DNA of 21,441 nt. Source: a virus. Of the stretch, positions 1,004-14,135 are shown piece after piece. The stretch spans positions 1 to 21,441 of IMG/VR virus record IMGVR_UViG_3300030616_000088. One strand, 5' to 3'. Numbering within the stretch: the stretch's first letter is position 1; every line of letters starts with the position of its first letter. The notes under the pieces were generated by a model. That model did not search any database and was not told the DNA's origin. It saw nothing but the letters and a program-made list of their open reading frames with translations. The position numbers were made by a program, and so were the translations under genes.

Positions 1004-1293
1004 TTTTCACCCTTTCCGATTAGATGGTCCGCAACTCCCCTCAAAACATCTTCGGCAAGCTGTATTCTTTTGTGGACCATACCTTCTTCGGACTCTTTCG
1101 GGACAACTAAAACCTCATAGCCTAAAGCCTTCGCCCAGGCAGACAAACTATCAAGGCTTGGCTTAGTTGTTCCCTTTTCTGCCTGTGATAAAAAAGACGA
1201 AGTAGCTTTGGTTCTTCTAGCAAGCTCGTTTAGCTTCATACCCTTTAAATGCCTAATATGCCGCGAGTTCTTCAAAAAATCCTTTAATTCCAT
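1000..1293 (-). CDS. Cro/C1 (XRE)-type helix-turn-helix regulator (97 aa)
   Basis: Residues 1-65 match the XRE/Cro fold: an N-terminal helix (LKDFLKNSRHIRH), then KLNELARRTKATSSFLSQAEKGTTKPSLDSLSAWAKALGY, where LNELARRTKA is helix 2 and SSFLSQAEKG is the recognition helix. The C-terminal ~30 residues are charged and may dimerise. The ATG at 1293 is chosen because GGAGGT lies 5 nt upstream. The start overlaps the end of the lysozyme-like gene by 10 nt. Co-transcription with a lytic enzyme and with small operon partners suggests a role in timing phage gene expression, but no operator is recognisable. Confidence 0.88.
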   Translation of the reverse strand: MELKDFLKNSRHIRHLKGMKLNELARRTKATSSFLSQAEKGTTKPSLDSLSAWAKALGYEVLVVPKESEEGMVHKRIQLAEDVLRGVADHLIGKGEK

Positions 1294-2072
1294 TCTGACC
1301 TCCATTTTTCCATGTAATATTTAGCGTTACCGTACCAATTCTTATTTAACCCCGTAGGGTCGTTCTCTGCGCCTACCGGACACCACCTATCGGCAAAAGC
1401 CTTTAAGTCGCCGGCAAATCGTTTCTTGATAGTTCCTGCCGCCCATTGTGCTTGACATCGGAAAGAAACCCTCCAATCAGGGTGATCTTCAAATCGTTGG
1501 GCGGCGGGCGATAAAACGCCGAACTCTCTGCCTTGCCGCCCATTTTCCACTTTGCGGATAACGAACAACAATAGCCTAGCCTCACCAGCCAGGCTGTATT
1601 CGTTAGCCACTTCATTTATGATTTGAGACTCTTGAGGGGATAAAGACATCTGCTCTGCCGTGACTGTCTTAGATGTATTTTCGGCGTAGACAGAGCAGGT
1701 TAACAAAAAGGGGGTTGTAGTGATTGCGCTAAGTAAAAAGATCGCCCTTACAAAAAAAGTTAATTTGGGCTGAAACCGAAGGAAAAAGCTTTTAGCAAAT
1801 GGCAACTGTGAGTTACCATCGAGGACGTTAGCGCAACGCCACTTGTCGCTATCCCTTACGCCTTTATATCTTATGTTAACTTTTTGGCGATAAAAAAAAG
1901 ATGAAAATTCTAAGCCGGTATTAGCCTTTTTTCGTTCTCTATGTAAACGGTTACTGTGAAGTTCTACCCCTAGCGCGTGAGATGACACTACGCCCAGACA
2001 GGCACGACTAGAGTCCACGCCAGGGGTTTTTATGTTTGCTTTTGGTTTTAGGGTTTTTCGTTTTTGTGTCAT
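1284..2072 (-). CDS. Lysozyme/transglycosylase-like protein with membrane or signal segment; N-terminus uncertain
   Basis: In the 262-codon frame, residues 167-262 look like a phage lysozyme-like muramidase domain: VIRKVENGRQGREFG with candidate catalytic Glu176, then AAGTIKKRF, CPVGAENDPTGLNKNW near the end. Residues ~105-131 are hydrophobic and end in SVYA, consistent with a Sec signal or anchor. Residues 1-100 have odd composition and no family likeness. The ATG at 2072 has no ribosome binding site and lies about 4 nt from the predicted transcript start of a consensus promoter, so translation may really begin further in; a candidate is the ATG at M142. The first 300 nt may instead be a structured leader RNA (see the ncRNA entry). 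The enzyme domain itself is reasonably secure and would cleave cell-wall glycan during entry or lysis. Confidence 0.65.
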   Translation of the reverse strand: MTQKRKTLKPKANIKTPGVDSSRACLGVVSSHALGVELHSNRLHRERKKANTGLEFSSFFYRQKVNIRYKGVRDSDKWRCANVLDGNSQLPFAKSFFLRFQPKLTFFVRAIFLLSAITTTPFLLTCSVYAENTSKTVTAEQMSLSPQESQIINEVANEYSLAGEARLLLFVIRKVENGRQGREFGVLSPAAQRFEDHPDWRVSFRCQAQWAAGTIKKRFAGDLKAFADRWCPVGAENDPTGLNKNWYGNAKYYMEKWRSEWN

Positions 2073-2076
2073 CTCA
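1741..2076 (-). ncRNA. Candidate structured leader or non-coding RNA with 25-nt antisense to the HTH gene
   Basis: The predicted start of transcription (about 2076) coincides with the first base of UGAGAUGACAC, which pairs perfectly with 1978-1988 (11 bp). A second stem pairs 2016-2026 with 1967-1979 (11 bp with GU pairs) and crosses the first, so a pseudoknot is possible. Further in, AUCGCC plus AAAAAGUUAA (1876-1891) pair with 1741-1746 and 1754-1763, enclosing a hairpin AGCG-A-CAA/UUG-CGCU. Bases 1794-1818 are perfectly complementary to codons 18-26 of the HTH gene mRNA. The 3' end is unknown: a U8 tract at 1892-1899 follows a weak AU-rich hairpin, and otherwise the RNA would run on into the lysozyme gene. 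No known RNA class is recognised. Confidence 0.5.
1794..1818. repeat. 25-bp perfect inverted repeat, left copy
   Basis: This 25-bp segment is the exact reverse complement of 2508-2532; the match stops abruptly on both sides. The left copy lies between the structured RNA and the lysozyme domain, the right copy inside the HTH gene. A 25-bp perfect match in a 0.7-kb neighbourhood is not expected by chance. Confidence 0.93.
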
Positions 2077-2082
2077 ATTATT

Positions 2083-2110
2083 ATTATAAACCTCTATTTA
2101 ACCTTGTCAA
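2083..2110 (-). promoter_or_regulatory. Consensus sigma-70 promoter for the structured RNA/lysozyme transcript
   Basis: On the minus strand, TTGACA (2105-2110) and TATAAT (2083-2088) are both exact consensus hexamers separated by 16 bp. An A/T-rich tract lies just upstream (2111-2140) and could act as an UP element. The predicted start of transcription is near 2076, only about 4 nt before the ATG at 2072. Confidence 0.85.
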
Positions 2111-3192: not shown

Positions 3193-3375
3193 TCAAGTGT
3201 TCTTTTCAATACCTCTGCGGATAGCCTCTTTTGCGCCGGCCTTGATAGCTTCCCCTAAAATCGCCTTAAATCGCTTTTTAAAGGCCTCTCTCTTTTCCCC
3301 TTCCGGGACGCCAACTACTTTAAGAAACGCCGAGAATAGACCCGTCAAGCCTTTTTTTATGCCTTTTAATAACAT
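3193..3375 (-). CDS. Small amphipathic basic protein (60 aa)
   Basis: Starts MLLKGIKKGLTGLFSAFLKVVG, followed by a Lys/Arg/Ala-rich helix. The N-terminus is an amphipathic helix that could bind membranes; the rest is highly basic. The ATG at 3375 lies inside the end of the amidase-like gene (56-nt overlap), but a well-placed GGAGGG site 9 nt upstream supports it. At the end of the lysis-like block it might be a pore-forming or envelope-binding peptide, or a DNA-binding one. I recognise no family. Confidence 0.6.
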   Translation of the reverse strand: MLLKGIKKGLTGLFSAFLKVVGVPEGEKREAFKKRFKAILGEAIKAGAKEAIRRGIEKNT

Positions 3376-3901
3376 CTTCGTAACCCTCCGGTATTATTTC
3401 GCCTACTTCTACCCATTGGGGGTATTTTCGGCAGTATTTTCTAAGTTCTTCTGGGGTAGGCCGCTTTTTTATCTCTGATCCAAAAACTTCAAAAAGGTGT
3501 TGCTTGACCTTCTGGGAGCAATATTCAGTAAAAGGGCTTTCAAGCCACCGAACCCCGAAAAGCTGACCGACTACTCCAAGCCAGTCATAGCGTCTAAGCC
3601 ACCAGGGTTCGTCAAGATCACGGTATATCGCCTTCCACCATTCTTCCTGTTTCTCCTCAGTCAACCCCGCATAGCGGTAAAATAAAAAATAGGTGTGCTT
3701 ATTATCAACTTTATCAAAAGGTAAAGTCTTGAATCCGGTGAAATCCTGTGTAGCGAAGAACCCCGGCCGGTGGGATTCCATAACGTGAGATACCAGGCTA
3801 TTGGTTCTAAGCTGTATGCCCTTTCCAATAGGGCTTCTAAAATTATGGGTGAATGTTATTAAGGGGTAATAATCCAAAGGGATAGCGCTTATATCAAGCA
3901 T
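3320..3901 (-). CDS. Permuted papain-like (NlpC/P60 superfamily, YiiX/YaeF-like) amidase or peptidase
   Basis: 193 residues. The order of the candidate catalytic residues is His39 (NSLVSHVMESH) before Cys128 (SPFTEYCSQKVKQHL), as in circularly permuted NlpC/P60 enzymes of the YiiX/YaeF type (family C92). The strand-rich region around residues 58-75 (TLPFDK...TYFLFYRY) fits the core barrel. Such enzymes cut amide or thioester bonds in peptidoglycan or lipid-linked substrates. No signal peptide is seen, so if it is an endolysin it would need the neighbouring holin candidate. Its ribosome binding site (GGCGG) is weaker than most here. The start overlaps the 69-aa gene by 8 nt. Confidence 0.6.
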   Translation of the reverse strand: MLDISAIPLDYYPLITFTHNFRSPIGKGIQLRTNSLVSHVMESHRPGFFATQDFTGFKTLPFDKVDNKHTYFLFYRYAGLTEEKQEEWWKAIYRDLDEPWWLRRYDWLGVVGQLFGVRWLESPFTEYCSQKVKQHLFEVFGSEIKKRPTPEELRKYCRKYPQWVEVGEIIPEGYEDVIKRHKKRLDGSILGVS

Positions 3902-4103
3902 ATTTTAACCGCCATTTAAGCTGTTTTCTAAGGTCTTTCTCTGACCCACCGGATTTAATGATAAGCTTTTTTAAAGCATAAACTTCGGCAATATGCCGCC
4001 TAAACCTATCTTGTCCGTCCGGACCGAACTCGGCTTTTTCTCTTGCTTGCTTAATCAGCCAACTCGTTACGCTCGTCTGCTTTTTGTATGGCTTCAAAGA
4101 CAT
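3894..4103 (-). CDS. Small basic hypothetical protein (69 aa)
   Basis: A helical, basic protein (SLKPYKKQTSVTSWLIK at the start, KDLRKQLKWRLKYA at the end). An AGGAG site lies 12 nt upstream of the ATG at 4103, inside the preceding gene, which it overlaps by 53 nt. No family is recognised. It sits between the coiled-coil membrane proteins and the amidase-like gene, so a role in lysis or entry is possible but unsupported. Confidence 0.5.
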   Translation of the reverse strand: MSLKPYKKQTSVTSWLIKQAREKAEFGPDGQDRFRRHIAEVYALKKLIIKSGGSEKDLRKQLKWRLKYA

Positions 4104-5314: not shown

Positions 5315-7395
5315 TTTTCAAAGGCTATGTAAGTTACCTTGTAAGTTCCTGACGGACTGCCCGCTTTCGACCATGTAACAGTAAAAGACCCGTGGTCTGT
5401 GGCTGTAATCTTTGCCCTATTTACTGTTCCCCCCCCTTCATAATCATAAATTGAGTAGGTCGTATCCCCGTTGTAGTTAGCGAGTTTCCGATAAACACAT
5501 TGAGCGTTGCTCCCATCATCTGTTCCCCAACTTGCTTCGCCTGCGTCATCTTCCGCCCCAAAAAACAAAAATCTAGTAGGTTTAAAGCTTAACCCCGTGA
5601 CTTGTTGCGTGCCATCACCAGCAGTCGTATCCCGGGAAAATTGACCTGTTGCTGTTGCCCCAGAAGCAACCCCGCCTTCCCACGTTTTAGAGTTAGCGTT
5701 GTAATAAAGAACATACTGGTCTGTGGATTGGCTTAAATCTACGTTTAAATCCCCAATAGTAATTGTTCTATCCTCTGTTGGGTCTGTAACTGATACCGTG
5801 GTCTGCTTATTGTCGTCCGTTGCCCCTTCAAAGCTTACCTCACTTGCCAAATACAACTTTTTCCAGTACAACGCCTCCGACCCTAAATCATCCGTATTGG
5901 CGGTGTCCGAGATTAAAGACGTATTTATAGCCACAGAAGCTAAGTTATCCAAAGCTGTGCTTGCTCCGCCGACAGAGGCTAAAGCGTCATCTATCCCCTC
6001 TAAAATCGCCGCTAAGTCATCTACTGAATCCGCCTCACCTATGCTTGTGTCTGGGGTGATGTTATCCCAAGTAGCGGTTATTTCAATTTTGTCACCGTCT
6101 ATCGCCGCCGCCCCACCGTCTATAAAGATCGACACCCCGTTAAACCCAGTAAAGGCAGTTGTTCCGTCAAAAATGTTTGTGTACCATGTTTCATCAGTAA
6201 ACGAGCTATCATCGTCAGAATCAAAGTTATGCAAATAATCGTAGATATCGTCTTTTTCCGGGATGCCTGTGTCAGCGTTCCACCCGGAAGAATAAGCCTC
6301 GTTAGCACCTACTAACTCACTGGCTTCTATGACATTCGCTCCGCCTAAATGGGTCTCAAGTTCGGCCATAGTGTCTACTTCGGAGGTAGCCCCACCGTTT
6401 ACCCCTAAAAGTCCGGAATATCCCGAAACATTGGCCTCAACTCCGCCGTATTCATGCTCTATCGTCCCCGCAGAGAAGAAAGCAGTTGCGCTGTCACCAC
6501 TTGTCGCTGACCCGCCCTCAGAAGCACTAGCGGCATAATTAAAGTTAACGTCCCCGGAATCTACCGAATCATTGGGTAAATCTATATCCGCAGTCCCTTG
6601 GAATTGGATTGTAATTGTAGGTAAACTCGCGAACTTAATATAGTTGTTCACCCCGTCCCCTATTCTAAAATCGGAGGTAATGATCTGCTCTGTAAAAGAC
6701 CCGAAATTTATATCACCGTTTGCGTCAGGGTCGCTGATATCATCCCAAGCAGTAGCTCCACCAGCCGCGCCCAATGCGTCATCTATTCCTTCTAGGATGG
6801 CCGAAAGATCGTCTACACTATCAGCCTCGGCGATTCCCGTATCGGGGGTAATATTGTTCCATGTAGCGGTTATCTCAAGCTTATCTCCGTCAATAGGGTT
6901 AGCCCCGCCGTCTATAAATTGGCCTACGTTGCTTACACTAATATTATCCGGGACTTCGGAATCATCGTCTGGCTGGTCATCGTCAGGTGAGTCGTCAAGC
7001 GTATCTAGCGCTTTCTGGACAGTATCGTCCCCGGCCCCTAACCGTGTGTTAAAGTTAGTAACCGTAGTAGGAGTAGAGGAAGCGTTAATGTCGTCTAACG
7101 CCTCTAAACACTCCTGCACGGTGTCTGTGGTAGAGTTTAAGATACCATTAAAATTAGTCGTAATGACAGGAAAAGACGCGGCGTTGATGTTGTCTATCCT
7201 TTCTAAAGCCGTCTGAACAGTAGCCGGAGAAGCCAGAAACCCTTGCAACGTAGTATCATCTGTGTTAGTGATCTTGGCCTCATCGTAGACCATATCCATT
7301 TTTCCGGTGCTGTAATTATATTCCCAATTACTGTTCCCTGCCGCAAAAACAGAAATACACAGACTAAGCGCTAATAGTATAAGTATATGTCGCAT
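5311..7395 (-). CDS. Large repeat-rich tail fibre with Sec signal peptide (694 aa)
   Basis: The start at 7395 is chosen over an ATG at 7437 because AAAGG precedes it and it places a classic signal peptide at the N-terminus (MRHILILLALSLCISVFA). Residues ~35-130 hold TVQxALExLDxIN repeats, common in phage fibre shafts. A ~55-residue module beginning FIDGG and containing GDK(L/I)EITATW occurs twice, at about residues 160 and 424. The last ~110 residues (from GQFSRDTTAG) are a beta-rich domain shared with the 299-aa fibre and probably bind the receptor. The gene overlaps the small tail protein by 32 nt. A signal peptide on a fibre is unusual because phage tails normally assemble in the cytoplasm. 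Confidence 0.85.
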   Translation of the reverse strand: MRHILILLALSLCISVFAAGNSNWEYNYSTGKMDMVYDEAKITNTDDTTLQGFLASPATVQTALERIDNINAASFPVITTNFNGILNSTTDTVQECLEALDDINASSTPTTVTNFNTRLGAGDDTVQKALDTLDDSPDDDQPDDDSEVPDNISVSNVGQFIDGGANPIDGDKLEITATWNNITPDTGIAEADSVDDLSAILEGIDDALGAAGGATAWDDISDPDANGDINFGSFTEQIITSDFRIGDGVNNYIKFASLPTITIQFQGTADIDLPNDSVDSGDVNFNYAASASEGGSATSGDSATAFFSAGTIEHEYGGVEANVSGYSGLLGVNGGATSEVDTMAELETHLGGANVIEASELVGANEAYSSGWNADTGIPEKDDIYDYLHNFDSDDDSSFTDETWYTNIFDGTTAFTGFNGVSIFIDGGAAAIDGDKIEITATWDNITPDTSIGEADSVDDLAAILEGIDDALASVGGASTALDNLASVAINTSLISDTANTDDLGSEALYWKKLYLASEVSFEGATDDNKQTTVSVTDPTEDRTITIGDLNVDLSQSTDQYVLYYNANSKTWEGGVASGATATGQFSRDTTAGDGTQQVTGLSFKPTRFLFFGAEDDAGEASWGTDDGSNAQCVYRKLANYNGDTTYSIYDYEGGGTVNRAKITATDHGSFTVTWSKAGSPSGTYKVTYIAFEK

Positions 7396-7750: not shown

Positions 7751-9162
7751 TCACCACCTACACCTTTAAATCCCCCATACAAATATCGTCCTAAAAGGTA
7801 CGCACCTGCGCCTCCTGCCCCGATTTTCATGGTTTGTCTGCCTCGGTATTTGTTCATATTGGCCAATAGCTGTTTTGCGTTCCTTCCTAGCTCAACCAGG
7901 TCGTCAGCATACTCCTTAGAAAGATACTTTTTGAGTTCTCCGATCAATTTTGGAGTTGTCCTTATAGCTTGCCGTTCCCCGGCAGTCCCGATATTCTTTA
8001 AGGCAAAGGTGCTCGTAACCCCTTGGGTTCTCGGTTCTCCTCTTTTCCCAAAAATCCCCTCTAGCCTCTCCAAACGAGGGTACAGCTTATCACTCGCAAA
8101 CTTGTTAAGCTCTTCTATTTGCTTTCCGACTTCCGGATCAACCTTTTTCACTGCGTTGTTAATTTCTTCCTGCAACCGGCGAGAAACATTCATTTTTTGT
8201 ATTTTAGGGCTAGTCATTCCCCCCTTACCTCTCACTCCTCCCTGGAAATAATAGGACTTAGGCACTTTAGACCGTACTAACTGCTTTAGCTGTCTTAGTT
8301 TTCCTATGGTATCTATCCTTCCCTGGAAAAAATCATCTACCTGTTGCAAAAAGCTGTTTTTGGCCATTGTCGGGTTTACGGCGTCATCAAATCCCATTTT
8401 TAGAATTATGTCATCGGCGACATCTGGATTAAACGGGATATCATCAACTATCTGTCCTGCGGATGTTCTAGTTTTTTGGTAGAAAGAATCAAAAGCCCCA
8501 CCGATAGCGTCATCAAAGTTTTTATAAACCACTCTACCCAACTTGGCTTGGTCTGTAAACCATTTGTCGTTCATAATCTTTGGGCGTGCTTTTACTGCGG
8601 AGGAAACAATCTTTTCCGGAATACCTGTTAATAGTTGAGTTACTAACATATCTCCGGCCATATCAATTCCTTTTGATACCGGGCCAGGCAACCCAACTTC
8701 TCTAGCCGGATCACCGAATTTACCGACCTTATCCCCGGCTAGACTTTCTAGCATAGGCTTTCCAAACCGCCCTAAAGCAGGGCTTACGGCTGTCACCGCC
8801 ACGTCTTTTAAGGTTTGCTTGAGTGGCTTATCCTTTTCTGGAGACATTACGTTAGCCACACCCCCAACTATTCGCCTTCTTATTCCTTCTCCGATATCCA
8901 TTGTCGCTAAAGGTAGCCCCATAGGAGAAAACTTGCCGAAAGACATTTCTTTAATCAGGTTAGACATCGTTTTGGGAGGCGATACAAACTTACGAAAAGA
9001 AGATGTCAGCAAATCTCCCCCTTGGGGTTTTGTATCTATTGAACCACCCTTAGAGAACCTTTTAGGTTGCTTCCGAAGTGAAGAAGTCTTTTTTTCTTCC
9101 AATTCCTCTAAGGATATAATATTTTTTCTTTCTTCTAGTTCATCTAATGAAATAATTGGCAT
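7747..9162 (-). CDS. Probable internal virion or DNA-ejection protein (471 aa)
   Basis: The N-terminus contains two copies of IISL(D/E)ELEE(R/K)K (residues 3-13 and 15-25), followed by a basic Gly-rich linker. The middle is helical with many charged residues (residues ~210-420), and the C-terminus ends in a Gly-rich hydrophobic stretch (GAGGAGAYLLGRYLYGG). There is no catalytic motif. Position beside the 393- and 289-aa proteins, between fibres and lysis genes, matches the ejection-protein trio of P22/T7-type viruses, which form a conduit for DNA through the envelope. Ribosome binding site AAGGAGG. Assignment rests on context and architecture rather than sequence homology. Confidence 0.55.
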   Translation of the reverse strand: MPIISLDELEERKNIISLEELEEKKTSSLRKQPKRFSKGGSIDTKPQGGDLLTSSFRKFVSPPKTMSNLIKEMSFGKFSPMGLPLATMDIGEGIRRRIVGGVANVMSPEKDKPLKQTLKDVAVTAVSPALGRFGKPMLESLAGDKVGKFGDPAREVGLPGPVSKGIDMAGDMLVTQLLTGIPEKIVSSAVKARPKIMNDKWFTDQAKLGRVVYKNFDDAIGGAFDSFYQKTRTSAGQIVDDIPFNPDVADDIILKMGFDDAVNPTMAKNSFLQQVDDFFQGRIDTIGKLRQLKQLVRSKVPKSYYFQGGVRGKGGMTSPKIQKMNVSRRLQEEINNAVKKVDPEVGKQIEELNKFASDKLYPRLERLEGIFGKRGEPRTQGVTSTFALKNIGTAGERQAIRTTPKLIGELKKYLSKEYADDLVELGRNAKQLLANMNKYRGRQTMKIGAGGAGAYLLGRYLYGGFKGVGGD

Positions 9163-10364: not shown

Positions 10365-11234
10365 CTAATTAAACGCTGATTGTATATAACCTTTTCCTCC
10401 GGGATAATAACTCTTGCCGTAGGAAGTATTAACGTACCCCGCAGGGTTAGAATAAGCCCGTCCAACTGGTTGCGAAGTCGGTAAGTTACTTAAAGCTAAA
10501 GCGTCTTGAAACCCTATCGGAGACCCTGCGCCACCGCCGGCCATAGCTCCCCCTAAAGAACCGCCGATTGAAGCCCCAATCATAGGAGCTCCGAAAAAAG
10601 AACCACCGATTGCACCGATCCCTGACCCTATCAAAGACCCTAAAGACCCCGCGCTTTGCCAATCGCTTAAAGCGTTCTGAAACCCTGCTTGAGAGTCAGC
10701 AACCCGCCCTTGATACTCCGCCAAAGACTTTAAGTTTGACTGCTGTATGTCTGTTTCTAGGTATGGGCCATATACGCTAGCAGGATCAATACCTATTTCT
10801 GCCATTAACGCCGCTTGACGTCCCTGTATTCCTAGCTCTGCCCTGCGTTGAGCTAAATCGGCAAGGTATTTGCCAACGTCATACCCAACGCGCCCTCTAG
10901 CTTGAGCTATTTGCTCGGCAAGAATAGGCGAAGAATACATCCCCGATAAAGAAAGGTTATGCTTGATAGAAGCTTCTAAGTCAGGTATGATGTTTTGAAA
11001 ATACTGATTGCCTAAAGCTTCCTCAAAGGAAGTCGGCCCATATTGAGCGTAATACTCTGGGCTTGCCTCTAAACTGCGTATATCCCTCAACCCCTTTTCC
11101 CTAGACATGGTGGCTTGGGGAAAAGTCTTTTTAGCCCAAGCTAATGCGTCCCTGAAAAATTCCGGAGCTTGATCGTAATGTATCGGCTTCGGCGGTGAAT
11201 AAGACGGCCTATCTCCAAATCCAAAAAATCCCAT
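10365..11234 (-). CDS. Probable DNA-ejection protein with glycine-zipper membrane segment (289 aa)
   Basis: Residues ~15-190 are helical with a PEFFRDALAWAKKTFPQ segment near the start. Residues 196-237 are an extended Gly/Ala/Ile stretch (SLGSLIGSGIGAIGGSFFG and following) typical of glycine-zipper membrane insertion in phage ejection proteins such as P22 gp7/gp20-type proteins. The tail is polar (SYGKSYYPGGKGYI). Strong GGAGGAG site. It sits just downstream of the secreted 133-aa protein and upstream of two further putative internal proteins, so the three probably form the DNA-transfer apparatus. Confidence 0.65.
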   Translation of the reverse strand: MGFFGFGDRPSYSPPKPIHYDQAPEFFRDALAWAKKTFPQATMSREKGLRDIRSLEASPEYYAQYGPTSFEEALGNQYFQNIIPDLEASIKHNLSLSGMYSSPILAEQIAQARGRVGYDVGKYLADLAQRRAELGIQGRQAALMAEIGIDPASVYGPYLETDIQQSNLKSLAEYQGRVADSQAGFQNALSDWQSAGSLGSLIGSGIGAIGGSFFGAPMIGASIGGSLGGAMAGGGAGSPIGFQDALALSNLPTSQPVGRAYSNPAGYVNTSYGKSYYPGGKGYIQSAFN

Positions 11235-11636
11235 TTACTCCTCCAATTTTAAAAGCTGTTTCAAGTCATTAAAAGATTCTTCCGACAACCCCAACTCTTT
11301 TTTTATTTTTTCAAGCTTTTTAACTTTTTCGGTCTTCTCTTTCTTCTTCTTTTCCTCCACAGGATCAATAATCCATTTTTTCTCAAGGATTTCCCATTCT
11401 TTTAAAGACACATATTTCTCTACCACGTCATTTTTTGAGTGCCCCGAACTTACGGCATTTTTGGTTAATGTCCCCAATTCAGCGTACCCCGTTTGAAACT
11501 CAATCAGCTTGCCGGTGTCTTTCTCCACGCAAACTCTGCCGTAAACTCCGTTTTTCTCAACAATCACCATTGGCAAGGGTTGTGCGAATACACACCCGCA
11601 CCAAATAACAAAAAGGATAGTAAAGCCCTTAGTCAT
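11235..11636 (-). CDS. Secreted hypothetical protein with charged C-terminus (133 aa)
   Basis: A short signal peptide (MTKGFTILFVIWCGCVFA, cleavage after VFA) is followed by a beta-rich segment (PMVIVEKNGVYGRVCVEKDTG) and, from about residue 85, a Lys/Glu-rich coiled-coil-like tail. No family is recognised. It overlaps the end of the fibre gene by 8 nt and ends directly before the ejection protein gene, so it is part of the tail operon. With five neighbours it forms the set of signal-peptide proteins within the virion block. Could be a periplasmic chaperone or tail part. Confidence 0.65.
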   Translation of the reverse strand: MTKGFTILFVIWCGCVFAQPLPMVIVEKNGVYGRVCVEKDTGKLIEFQTGYAELGTLTKNAVSSGHSKNDVVEKYVSLKEWEILEKKWIIDPVEEKKKKEKTEKVKKLEKIKKELGLSEESFNDLKQLLKLEE

Positions 11637-12528
11637 AAGCTATATACACCACCGTTATAGTTCCTGACGCCCCACCAGTACGAGTCCACGCCACAGTAAA
11701 CCCGTCAGAATCAAAACTGTTAATATTGCCTTCATATATATTGCTTGCGTCTTGGTGAATACGAATACTGTCGTCCGTGTCTGCGTTGAAAACCGTCCCC
11801 GATCTATACACACATGCCGCAGTCGTTCCGTCATCAGCCCCCCAGGAAACCTCGTCAGAGTCGGCGTCCGTAGCGTAAAAATCAACCGCTCTTGGGGTAA
11901 ACCCTACCCCTGTAACTGATTGGTTGCCCGAAGCCGTGCCTTCGTCTCTAGTGAAAGTCCCGACATAAATATCCGTTCTGCTATCTATATACTCTTTTAC
12001 CGCCTTTTCAGTAGGGACAGCGGTATTTGAACTATCTCCTAAAGTCAAATCCGTGGAAAACTCGTTTATCGCCGCACCGTTCTCTAACGTCAGCCCAACA
12101 CTTGACATTGACGCCGCTTGCGTTCCCCCACAATCAAACCTTAAAAAATCTTCGTCCGCCGATTCTTCCGTCTGTATCTTGGTATCCCTGTCTTTATCCC
12201 AAATAAACGAACTGAAATTGTTGAAAGCAGACCCATCATCTACGTTCCAGGATTTTTCGCTAGTGTTATAAACCACTCGTCCATTTGTCCCCGCGGAAGG
12301 AGTAGACCCTAACGATTCATAAAACCTAAACCCAGAGGAAGTTTTAGCGTTATCATTGTCAAGGTTCCCGTTAACAACCGTGACTATATTACTGACATTA
12401 CCGTTTAACTTTGTGTTAGTAACCTGATCGGTCGCGGTGTAAGTATGGTAAACGCTAATCTGATCCGCAAACGCCACACCGAAAAGAACCAAAAACCCTA
12501 ATAACCCAAGTAAAAACTTCTTTTTCAT
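11629..12528 (-). CDS. Short tail fibre with Sec signal peptide (299 aa)
   Basis: The start at 12528 is set by the GGAGGAG site overlapping the upstream ATG at 12540. The N-terminus MKKKFLLGLLGFLVLFGVAFA is a textbook signal peptide. The motif LGDSSNTAVPTEKAVKEYID at about residues 163-182 is common in phage fibre stalks. The last ~110 residues (from YVGTFTRDEGTAS) are a beta domain with GVGFTPRAVDFYA, WGADDGTTAACVY and TVVYIAY that is clearly paralogous to the end of the 694-aa fibre. The start overlaps the stop of the 536-aa gene (ATGA). Confidence 0.85.
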   Translation of the reverse strand: MKKKFLLGLLGFLVLFGVAFADQISVYHTYTATDQVTNTKLNGNVSNIVTVVNGNLDNDNAKTSSGFRFYESLGSTPSAGTNGRVVYNTSEKSWNVDDGSAFNNFSSFIWDKDRDTKIQTEESADEDFLRFDCGGTQAASMSSVGLTLENGAAINEFSTDLTLGDSSNTAVPTEKAVKEYIDSRTDIYVGTFTRDEGTASGNQSVTGVGFTPRAVDFYATDADSDEVSWGADDGTTAACVYRSGTVFNADTDDSIRIHQDASNIYEGNINSFDSDGFTVAWTRTGGASGTITVVYIAYD

Positions 12529-14135
12529 TCTCTCCTCCAAGGTTTCATGTAGGCGAAAATAGTCGCCCTATGTAAGTCGCACAATTCGCTAAGTCCATCC
12601 TGGACAACTCTTATCTTTATGTTTTTAAACTCCCCATACTGTTGCAGTTGGAAAGTCTCTCTCGCCACTCCACTAGCACTTAGGGTAAACGGTAATGACA
12701 CAGGTAAAGTCACAGCGCCACCGGCCAAGTTCATATCCCCAACTCTTTGCCACCCGCCGTCATCCATTTCGATATAGACATCAGCGTCATAGTCACCGCT
12801 CGCTCCAAGCTCTAAGTCCAAGGCGTCCAACATCTTATAGTTTTCGGGGTTATCAAAAGAAATGTTTTTGGACCGCCAGTCAAAAGTAATCGCAACGGAA
12901 GGCTCGGAAGACCCTGTAACCACCGGCCCCTCGTACATATCCCCCGTAGTTCCGGTGAAGCACTCAATCATCCGCCCATCATTAGCGTCTATATAGTAAA
13001 GGTCGTTTTCATAAACTATCCATTCTGCGGGATACCACCCATCAATAGTGGTCCACGACTTAGTAAGAAAATCATATACAACTACATAATCGTTTACAGT
13101 AGAAACCCCTGTAGGAATACCCAAAATATACTTATTGTCATGCAAGATAGCGCACGCCACATCTATTGAAGAAACATTTATCGTGGTTTCCCCCGTCCCG
13201 TCAAAAATATCTTGTATCGGGTCAGAAGCTCTATCCAAAAGAATTTTGTCAAAGCTTGACCGGATTAAGCTCCTTACAGCTATCGGCTCACTTGATAAAA
13301 ACCAATGATCGTTCCCAATGTTAACAACCGATCTTTCTGCGGCACACCCGATTGTTCTGCTTATAGGTTTATAAGCCCAGTCAGCTAATGGGGTTGACCC
13401 CGTTATATCAAGCATATAAACACTTCGTTGCTTATAGACTATGATTTCGTTCTCTCTAAACGGCTCTATCCTTACTATCTCTTGTCCGTCTCCGGTGTTT
13501 ATCTTTATCACGTTATTAGCGGTAAACTCTCTAGGTTCAAGGTTGTTTGAAAAATATACCCAATCCGGATAGGTAGGGTTGCCGGCTAAAAACAAATAGT
13601 TAGCAACCCAAGCTCCGGTTGTAGCTTTGGGCGGGCTAGCTGGGTAAACTGTCCCTACCGAGGTTGGCAAAACAAAAGTAGACCCATCGTACCAAGAAGT
13701 GTTGTCTTCCCCATTAAAAATAAACAGTAAGTTGTCGGCCTGTAAAAATTCGGTATTATACCCTGCCGTTAAAGCCTTCCCTGTATTAACAACCGTCCAA
13801 CTAGCTCCTGCCGAAGTAGAGCGGACAATATCTGTGCCAGAAGCGGCTAAAACGTAAGATGTTGTTGAATCCGGGTAAAAATCCCCTACCCCTCGAAAAG
13901 CCGTGTTCCCAAGGTCATCCGCGAAAAGAGCCTGTCCTTTTCTTTTTTCTAGCCTTCCTCGCTTTTCCTGGCTAGCGTTTTGGACGAGTTCTCCTTGGTT
14001 TACGTCTATGCTATCGGCTAAATCATAGCTATTCTGCCCTCCGGAAAAATCGTCAATACGGACCTTTATTAACTCTTGCGAGTACGCCGAGGCAACCAAA
14101 AACAACGAAATCGTTAAAGTTAAAAACTTTTTCAT
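12525..14135 (-). CDS. Tail / DNA-stabilisation-like beta-propeller protein with signal peptide (536 aa)
   Basis: After the N-terminal MKKFLTLTISLFLVASAYS comes IDDFSGGQNSYDLADSIDVNQ then RGRLEKRKGQALFAD, a pattern typical of phage stabilisation or tail-hub proteins (P22 gp10-like in layout) that begin with fGGlN...e...N...G.l.kR.G. The middle shows repeated beta-blade features (WVANYLFLAGNPTYPDWVYFSNN; VVVYDFLTKSWTTIDGWYP). It lies directly after the adaptor-like gene, the usual place for the protein that closes the head-tail channel. The signal peptide is completely unexpected for such a component, which normally assembles onto filled heads in the cytoplasm. Confidence 0.75.
   Translation of the reverse strand: MKKFLTLTISLFLVASAYSQELIKVRIDDFSGGQNSYDLADSIDVNQGELVQNASQEKRGRLEKRKGQALFADDLGNTAFRGVGDFYPDSTTSYVLAASGTDIVRSTSAGASWTVVNTGKALTAGYNTEFLQADNLLFIFNGEDNTSWYDGSTFVLPTSVGTVYPASPPKATTGAWVANYLFLAGNPTYPDWVYFSNNLEPREFTANNVIKINTGDGQEIVRIEPFRENEIIVYKQRSVYMLDITGSTPLADWAYKPISRTIGCAAERSVVNIGNDHWFLSSEPIAVRSLIRSSFDKILLDRASDPIQDIFDGTGETTINVSSIDVACAILHDNKYILGIPTGVSTVNDYVVVYDFLTKSWTTIDGWYPAEWIVYENDLYYIDANDGRMIECFTGTTGDMYEGPVVTGSSEPSVAITFDWRSKNISFDNPENYKMLDALDLELGASGDYDADVYIEMDDGGWQRVGDMNLAGGAVTLPVSLPFTLSASGVARETFQLQQYGEFKNIKIRVVQDGLSELCDLHRATIFAYMKPWRRE

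Follow-up and report, generated by a model that had tools for sequence, protein, structure and literature searches.

A probable control element of phage transcripts: a predicted 5'-terminal pseudoknot with the same layout in three phages

A 21.4-kb record of an uncultivated virus (IMG/VR IMGVR_UViG_3300030616_000088; its full 21,441 nucleotides are called the window here) contains a perfect sigma-70-type promoter followed at once by two interleaved helices. The same layout occurs in two other, distantly related phages, one of which carries another knot of related design behind a further promoter. The pseudoknot probably represents a genuine control element that has not been described before. 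We give an even chance to the fuller reading drawn from these sequences, in which transcripts would start at the first helix, fold as the pairings predict and be controlled in cis by a shape-conserved, 5'-terminal pseudoknot of early phage transcripts.

A pseudoknot directly downstream of a perfect promoter

The window encodes a major capsid protein of the Mu-gpT/capsid_4 type and an SU10-type adaptor, and nearly all of its genes are on the minus strand. The pseudoknot site lies near the left end, beyond the structural genes, flanked by a 154-aa ORF (2585-2121) and a lysozyme-like gene that ends at 1284. The record itself opens on the left with a 24-bp unit repeated in tandem (1-160, 6.7 copies). 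Two more strong minus-strand promoters (3138-3110 and 3082-3054, 11/12 each) stand near each other before the gene 3035-2769, without a pseudoknot. The features of the site are as follows.

2083..2110, minus strand: sigma-70-type promoter TTGACA-16-TATAAT, 12/12, with an A-rich tract upstream; the only 12/12 in the window
2110-2105 and 2088-2083, minus strand: promoter boxes TTGACA and TATAAT, with a 16-nt spacer
2076, minus strand: predicted transcript start, 7 nt past the -10 box, placed from the promoter
2066..2076, minus strand: 5' strand of P1, UGAGAUGACAC, including the AUG at 2072-2070
2028..2065, minus strand: unstructured, A-rich loop L1 of 38 nt (26 A)
2018..2027, minus strand: 5' strand of P2, ACCCCUGGCG
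1989..2017, minus strand: loop L2 (29 nt), containing two short hairpins
1978..1988, minus strand: 3' strand of P1, GUGUCAUCUCA
1976..1977, minus strand: junction L3 (CG)
1966..1975, minus strand: 3' strand of P2, CGCUAGGGGU
1284..1805, minus strand: lysozyme-like gene with a probable signal peptide; start codon uncertain (frame open to ATG 2072)

The original prediction had placed the transcript start of a perfect promoter on the first base of a stem 11 bp long that is crossed by a second one. The TTGACA-16-TATAAT match is exact, on the minus strand and the sole 12/12 match in the window; the start that it predicts (2076) is the first base of P1; and P1 (2066-2076 with 1978-1988) is paired at 11/11 positions. 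The crossing stem is real but was drawn in a register (2016-2026 with 1967-1979) that requires bulges, whereas the contiguous version pairs 2027-2018 with 1975-1966, giving 10 bp with one G-U, 2 nt after P1. What had been described as two more stems that follow corresponds to the two short hairpins inside the 2017-1989 loop, but the 325-nt leader is not unusually stable in nested folding (z -1.20 against shuffles), so that nested folding overlooks the pseudoknot. A structured length of ~110 nt (2076-1966) is supported and the proposed ~300 nt is not. The ATG at 2072 lies within P1, ~4 nt from the predicted start, and, as had been noted, has no Shine-Dalgarno sequence. For transcripts that begin at 2076, the 5' nucleotide would lie where the two helices join, and the anatomy indicates that L1 (33-38 nt in the instances described below) would be long enough to bridge them.

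A lone inverted repeat of the P1 type is weak evidence: within a span of 120 bp, two occur in the window, compared with 0.65 in whole-window shuffles, and one is reached in 34/2000 local shuffles. The combination of P1 at the start, a crossing P2 and a short junction was reached in none of the shuffles in two tests (0/48000 and 0/16000). The proposal of a pseudoknot-capable RNA is thus borne out, with its rarity lying in the combination.

The longest inverted repeat of the window, a perfect one of 25 bp (1794-1818 / 2508-2532), includes the near-palindrome GGYAACTNNNAGTTRCC. One copy is in the leader just ahead of the lysozyme signal peptide, and the other is within the 5' part of ORF 2585-2121. 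If the leader RNA reached 1794-1818, it would be antisense to the mRNA of that ORF; or the copies may be two operator sites.

Relatives of the leader and of the lysozyme-like gene

Searches of the viral_contigs and phages collections revealed no close relatives, at the DNA or protein level, of the leader, of the gene upstream or of the gene 3320-3901; two 16-nt exact matches to the core sequence in viral_contigs have different flanks and were set aside as chance. An Rfam search of the window gave 0 matches at the gathering threshold. The same threshold applied over L003, L004 and L109 returned a tRNA in L003 only, and permissive scans gave chance-level matches alone, far below threshold.

The lysozyme-like protein has few homologues: L003 (67% identity over its aligned part), L004 (58%) and L106 (42%), the last detected through a degenerate DNA pattern. 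The family (window 1284-1757, L003, L004, L106) matches no model of Pfam or PHROG. The lysozyme label is based on these homologues, on weak tblastn similarity to NlpC/P60-type plasmid proteins and on a weak match of the predicted fold to the catalytic domain of a chitinase (TM 0.54, E 2). No homologue was found in genome_contigs or among 50 further capsid relatives, and the nearest capsid relatives, L005 and L006 (75-76%), have no such lysozyme or leader in the DNA examined.

In L003, ~680 nt of HNH-like coding sequence (3320-4000; CxxC and HH motifs) splits the lysozyme gene after the ...RKVENGR codons. This insert, which has no Rfam intron match, is possibly an intron or homing insertion. 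The tRNA of L003 is a tRNA-Lys(UUU) gene (2760-2837) that lies shortly upstream of the lysozyme promoter and on the other strand.

A shared layout in unrelated sequences

The L004 and L106 homologues are each accompanied by a pseudoknot with the layout seen in the window, behind an 11/12 promoter. In L004 the promoter is TTGACA-15-GATAAT, and the order is GGGGUUAG, a loop of 36 nt rich in A, GGGAGUAGGU, a loop of 31 nt that holds two hairpins, CUAACCCC, 1 nt and ACCUGCUCCC. In L106 the promoter is TTGACA-17-TATACT, and the helices are UGCUGAA/UUCAGCA and CCGGUGGCCGUG/CACGGCCACCGG. All three sites have a strong promoter, a P1 at most ~10 nt from the start and a crossing P2 with a short junction, in the following dimensions (window, L004, L106).

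P1: 11, 8 and 7 bp
P2: 10, 10 and 12 bp
L1: 38, 36 and 33 nt
L2: 29, 31 and 22 nt, with one or more hairpins inside
L3: 2, 1 and 1 nt

Sequence similarity among these pseudoknots was not detectable, so that the shared layout amounts to wholesale compensatory change.

The likeness of L004 was first suggested by eye. A blind scan of 640 kb of phage DNA for a promoter with a start-anchored pseudoknot gave rise to four sites (the window, L004, L106 and a weak one in G003), compared with 1, 4 and 2 matches in all on shuffled DNA. Site by site, the observed stems of the window, L004 and L106 were reached in 0/48000, 8/48000 and 1/48000 shuffles. When 1411 promoter-like sites were ranked by stem length, the three pseudoknots came first, second and joint third, with values of 21, 19 and 18 against a background of 0 or 12-15; the other joint third is a weak AU-only pairing at a 9/12 promoter.

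A second scan, in which either junction was allowed to be short and sites were scored by stacking energy, revealed a fourth pseudoknot in the genome of L004 (G004 6763, minus strand; promoter 11/12), upstream of a DnaD-like replication gene. Its helices are UGAUGAGC/GCUCAUCA and AGACGGUGGG with its partner, and its loops (L1 41, L2 1, L3 24) have a short L2 in place of the short L3. It is a variant of the 5'-terminal pseudoknot and counts for less because it was found after the geometry had been relaxed. The four instances, from three phages, score -38 to -44 kcal/mol, compared with -28.5 for the best remaining site, and the stem energy of each was reached in 0/16000 shuffles. Pseudoknot-like pairings at G002 7813(+), L091 6879(-) and L104 1289(+) are weak or AU-rich and were assigned to background. 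In L091, two adjacent paralogous genes (10490-11491 and 11550-12596) carry long variable repeats of the Ser-Ala-Arg/Gly type in otherwise near-identical proteins and could be a site of recombination or diversification.

Three of the four known pseudoknots adjoin the lysozyme-like gene. The description as a lysozyme leader, which fits the placement in the window and directly upstream of the L004 gene, is nevertheless too narrow, since the L106 pseudoknot is on the opposite strand and reads away from its lysozyme, the G004 site precedes the DnaD-like gene, and L003 lacks the structure. Indeed, the strong lysozyme promoter of L003 is followed by an ordinary Shine-Dalgarno leader, so the element is not obligatory. 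Other strong promoters (window 3138 and 3082, the G003 genome, L106 genome 15334) are also without a pseudoknot, as are five strong promoters in an unrelated phage with an annotated genome. Around the L106 lysozyme, the motif GGCGTGAC(A) recurs at 5945-5954, 6427-6438 and 6480-6491, at or near three promoter regions, and resembles an operator at which a repressor would control a divergent early region.

Proposed function in cis

The genes behind the pseudoknots are the lysozyme-like gene (window, L004), a 101-aa gene without known function (L106) and the DnaD-like gene (G004 6763); the genes downstream in L004 are of early type (nuclease, ERF, SSB). Because downstream genes and orientation differ, a function linked to the 5' end fits better than one linked to a gene product. 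In three of the four cases a gene starts 10-22 nt beyond P2, the exception being the window, where P2 is followed by neither a start codon nor a U-tract. All four sites have a strong host-type promoter, a P1 strand ~10 nt or less from the predicted start, and an AUG in or beside that strand. The positions of the gene starts and of the AUG suggest a role in cis. The shared AUG is suggestive only, since a 5'-proximal AUG is not rare (130/662 promoter-like sites, 20%).

In the mechanism that we propose, a strong host-type promoter would start an early transcript whose first ~110 nt would fold as a pseudoknot. P1 would close the extreme 5' end, P2 would cross it, and the two would meet at a junction of 1-2 nt where they can stack, with an unstructured loop of 33-38 nt spanning both. 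That the helices abut but never overlap, in three independent sequences, speaks for helices that form together and stack rather than for alternative pairings that exclude each other. Selection would act on shape rather than sequence. The folded RNA would bury its 5' end together with the ribosome-binding site or first AUG; in this way translation may be delayed and/or the early mRNA protected until ribosomes, polymerase context or a factor opened the knot. Start-codon block, attenuation, 5' protection and antitermination are candidate steps of control; start-codon block, though, cannot be a function common to all, since the gene downstream in L106 has a good ribosome-binding site that the knot does not include.

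More tentatively, and with somewhat less than an even chance, these RNAs may represent an undescribed class set by geometry alone: a ~110-nt coaxial 5' pseudoknot without conserved sequence, found at strong early promoters in unrelated phages and in more than one copy per genome, that would serve as a portable module independent of the gene behind it, in RNA protection, polymerase modification or translation gating. An RNA that keeps only its topology would escape sequence-based searches of the Rfam kind and could occur widely at the early promoters of phages; the pseudoknot geometry is directly searchable.

Alternative explanations

The main rival to an action in cis is a free pseudoknotted non-coding RNA of ~100-115 nt, made from its own promoter and acting in trans on a target in the host or the phage, with P2 and a U-rich stretch serving as terminator and both ends shielded from exonucleases. 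The dedicated strong promoter and the placement of both RNA ends in helices are consistent with such an RNA, as are the L106 copy, transcribed away from lysozyme and hence not tied to one gene, and the U-rich tract that directly follows P2 at three of the four sites (UUUACUAUUU, UUCUUUUA, AUGUUUUUCUU). In the window, however, the nearest T8 is at 1893-1900 and no terminator was scored; P2 as a terminator stem would have a loop of >30 nt; and the gene starts shortly beyond P2 also speak against it. We consider a free RNA unlikely.

Processive antitermination like that of put RNA, in which nascent 5' RNA binds the host polymerase and passes early terminators, is one specific form of the cis reading. 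It would suit an element at promoters of early-type operons, before different genes and in both directions, and HK022 putL likewise forms base pairs between +3 and +72, immediately downstream of pL (PMC9378689). put RNAs share sequence and form two stem-loops, with a pseudoknot unmentioned, whereas the present elements share no sequence, and promoters 3138 and 3082 of the window and 15334 of the L106 genome, strong promoters of the same phages, carry no pseudoknot. This form is improbable.

The lysozyme frame could also be longer, starting at ATG 2072 (262 aa), with the region as its 5' portion and the pairing incidental. The frame is open over 105 codons (2072-1759), which only 0.18% of shuffles equal (p 0.0018), and the L004 lysozyme frame likewise begins at the pseudoknot and is open through it. 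ATG 2072 lacks a Shine-Dalgarno sequence, however, the L003 and L106 lysozymes begin right at a normal signal peptide, leader codon usage is not coding-like (a weak test here), and a longer frame would not account for the layout that three phages have in common. A longer frame is thus very improbable as the whole explanation. The earlier view of the leader as RNA rather than just protein gains from the unrelated sequences with one layout in two other phages, but the open frame may also be coding.

The least probable reading is four coincidental interleaved inverted repeats: cases are few, a single 11-bp repeat is unremarkable window-wide and the comparison was prompted by eye at L004, but none of 16000 shuffles reaches the stem energy at any of the four sites, and the top sites of ~1400 adjoin homologues of one rare gene.

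Comparison with known systems

HDV-like ribozymes have the same order (P1, P2, hairpin, P1', P2', with P1 at the 5' end), but an L3 of 2, 1 and 1 nt leaves no room for P4 and the catalytic C, and no Rfam match was found. Metabolite riboswitches of the pseudoknot types were rejected, as the elements share no sequence and have no conserved ligand-binding core. A type III toxin-antitoxin RNA was likewise rejected: the element is present in a single copy in the window, where tandem arrays lie only at 1-160 and 9089-9156, and the next gene is lysozyme-like.

Nearest in placement are the RNA-only antiterminators putL and putR of HK022, of ~70 nt, with two stem-loops, a short triplex and shared sequence (PMC9378689). 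Both are structured RNAs at the very start of early phage transcripts from strong promoters. The present element differs as a ~110-nt pseudoknot of interleaved helices, known here from sequence, and the two adjacent stem-loops and shared sequence of put RNAs are absent.

The gene 32 pseudoknot of T4, T2 and RB69 is a translational operator of the single-strand binding protein gene, 67 nt before the start codon; its use in autoregulation in T4 was possibly the sole viral example according to a 2010 review (PMC3014915). Like the element, it is an H-type pseudoknot in a phage mRNA leader, with coaxially stackable stems and an A-rich unpaired stretch. Unlike it, the element is at the transcript start, has long loops and precedes lysozyme or other genes; the next genes (lysozyme-like, the L106 101-aa gene, DnaD-like) do not encode single-strand binding protein, which argues against an operator of the T4 type. 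In T4 gene e (lysozyme), a hairpin at the start region of early transcripts could prevent premature synthesis (PMC3014915). The likeness is RNA structure at a lysozyme start region, but gene e has a simple hairpin on long read-through transcripts, whereas the element is a pseudoknot with a dedicated promoter and in L106 lies off the lysozyme mRNA. By the comparisons made here the element belongs to none of these systems, and it possibly works like HK022 put, gene 32 or gene e.
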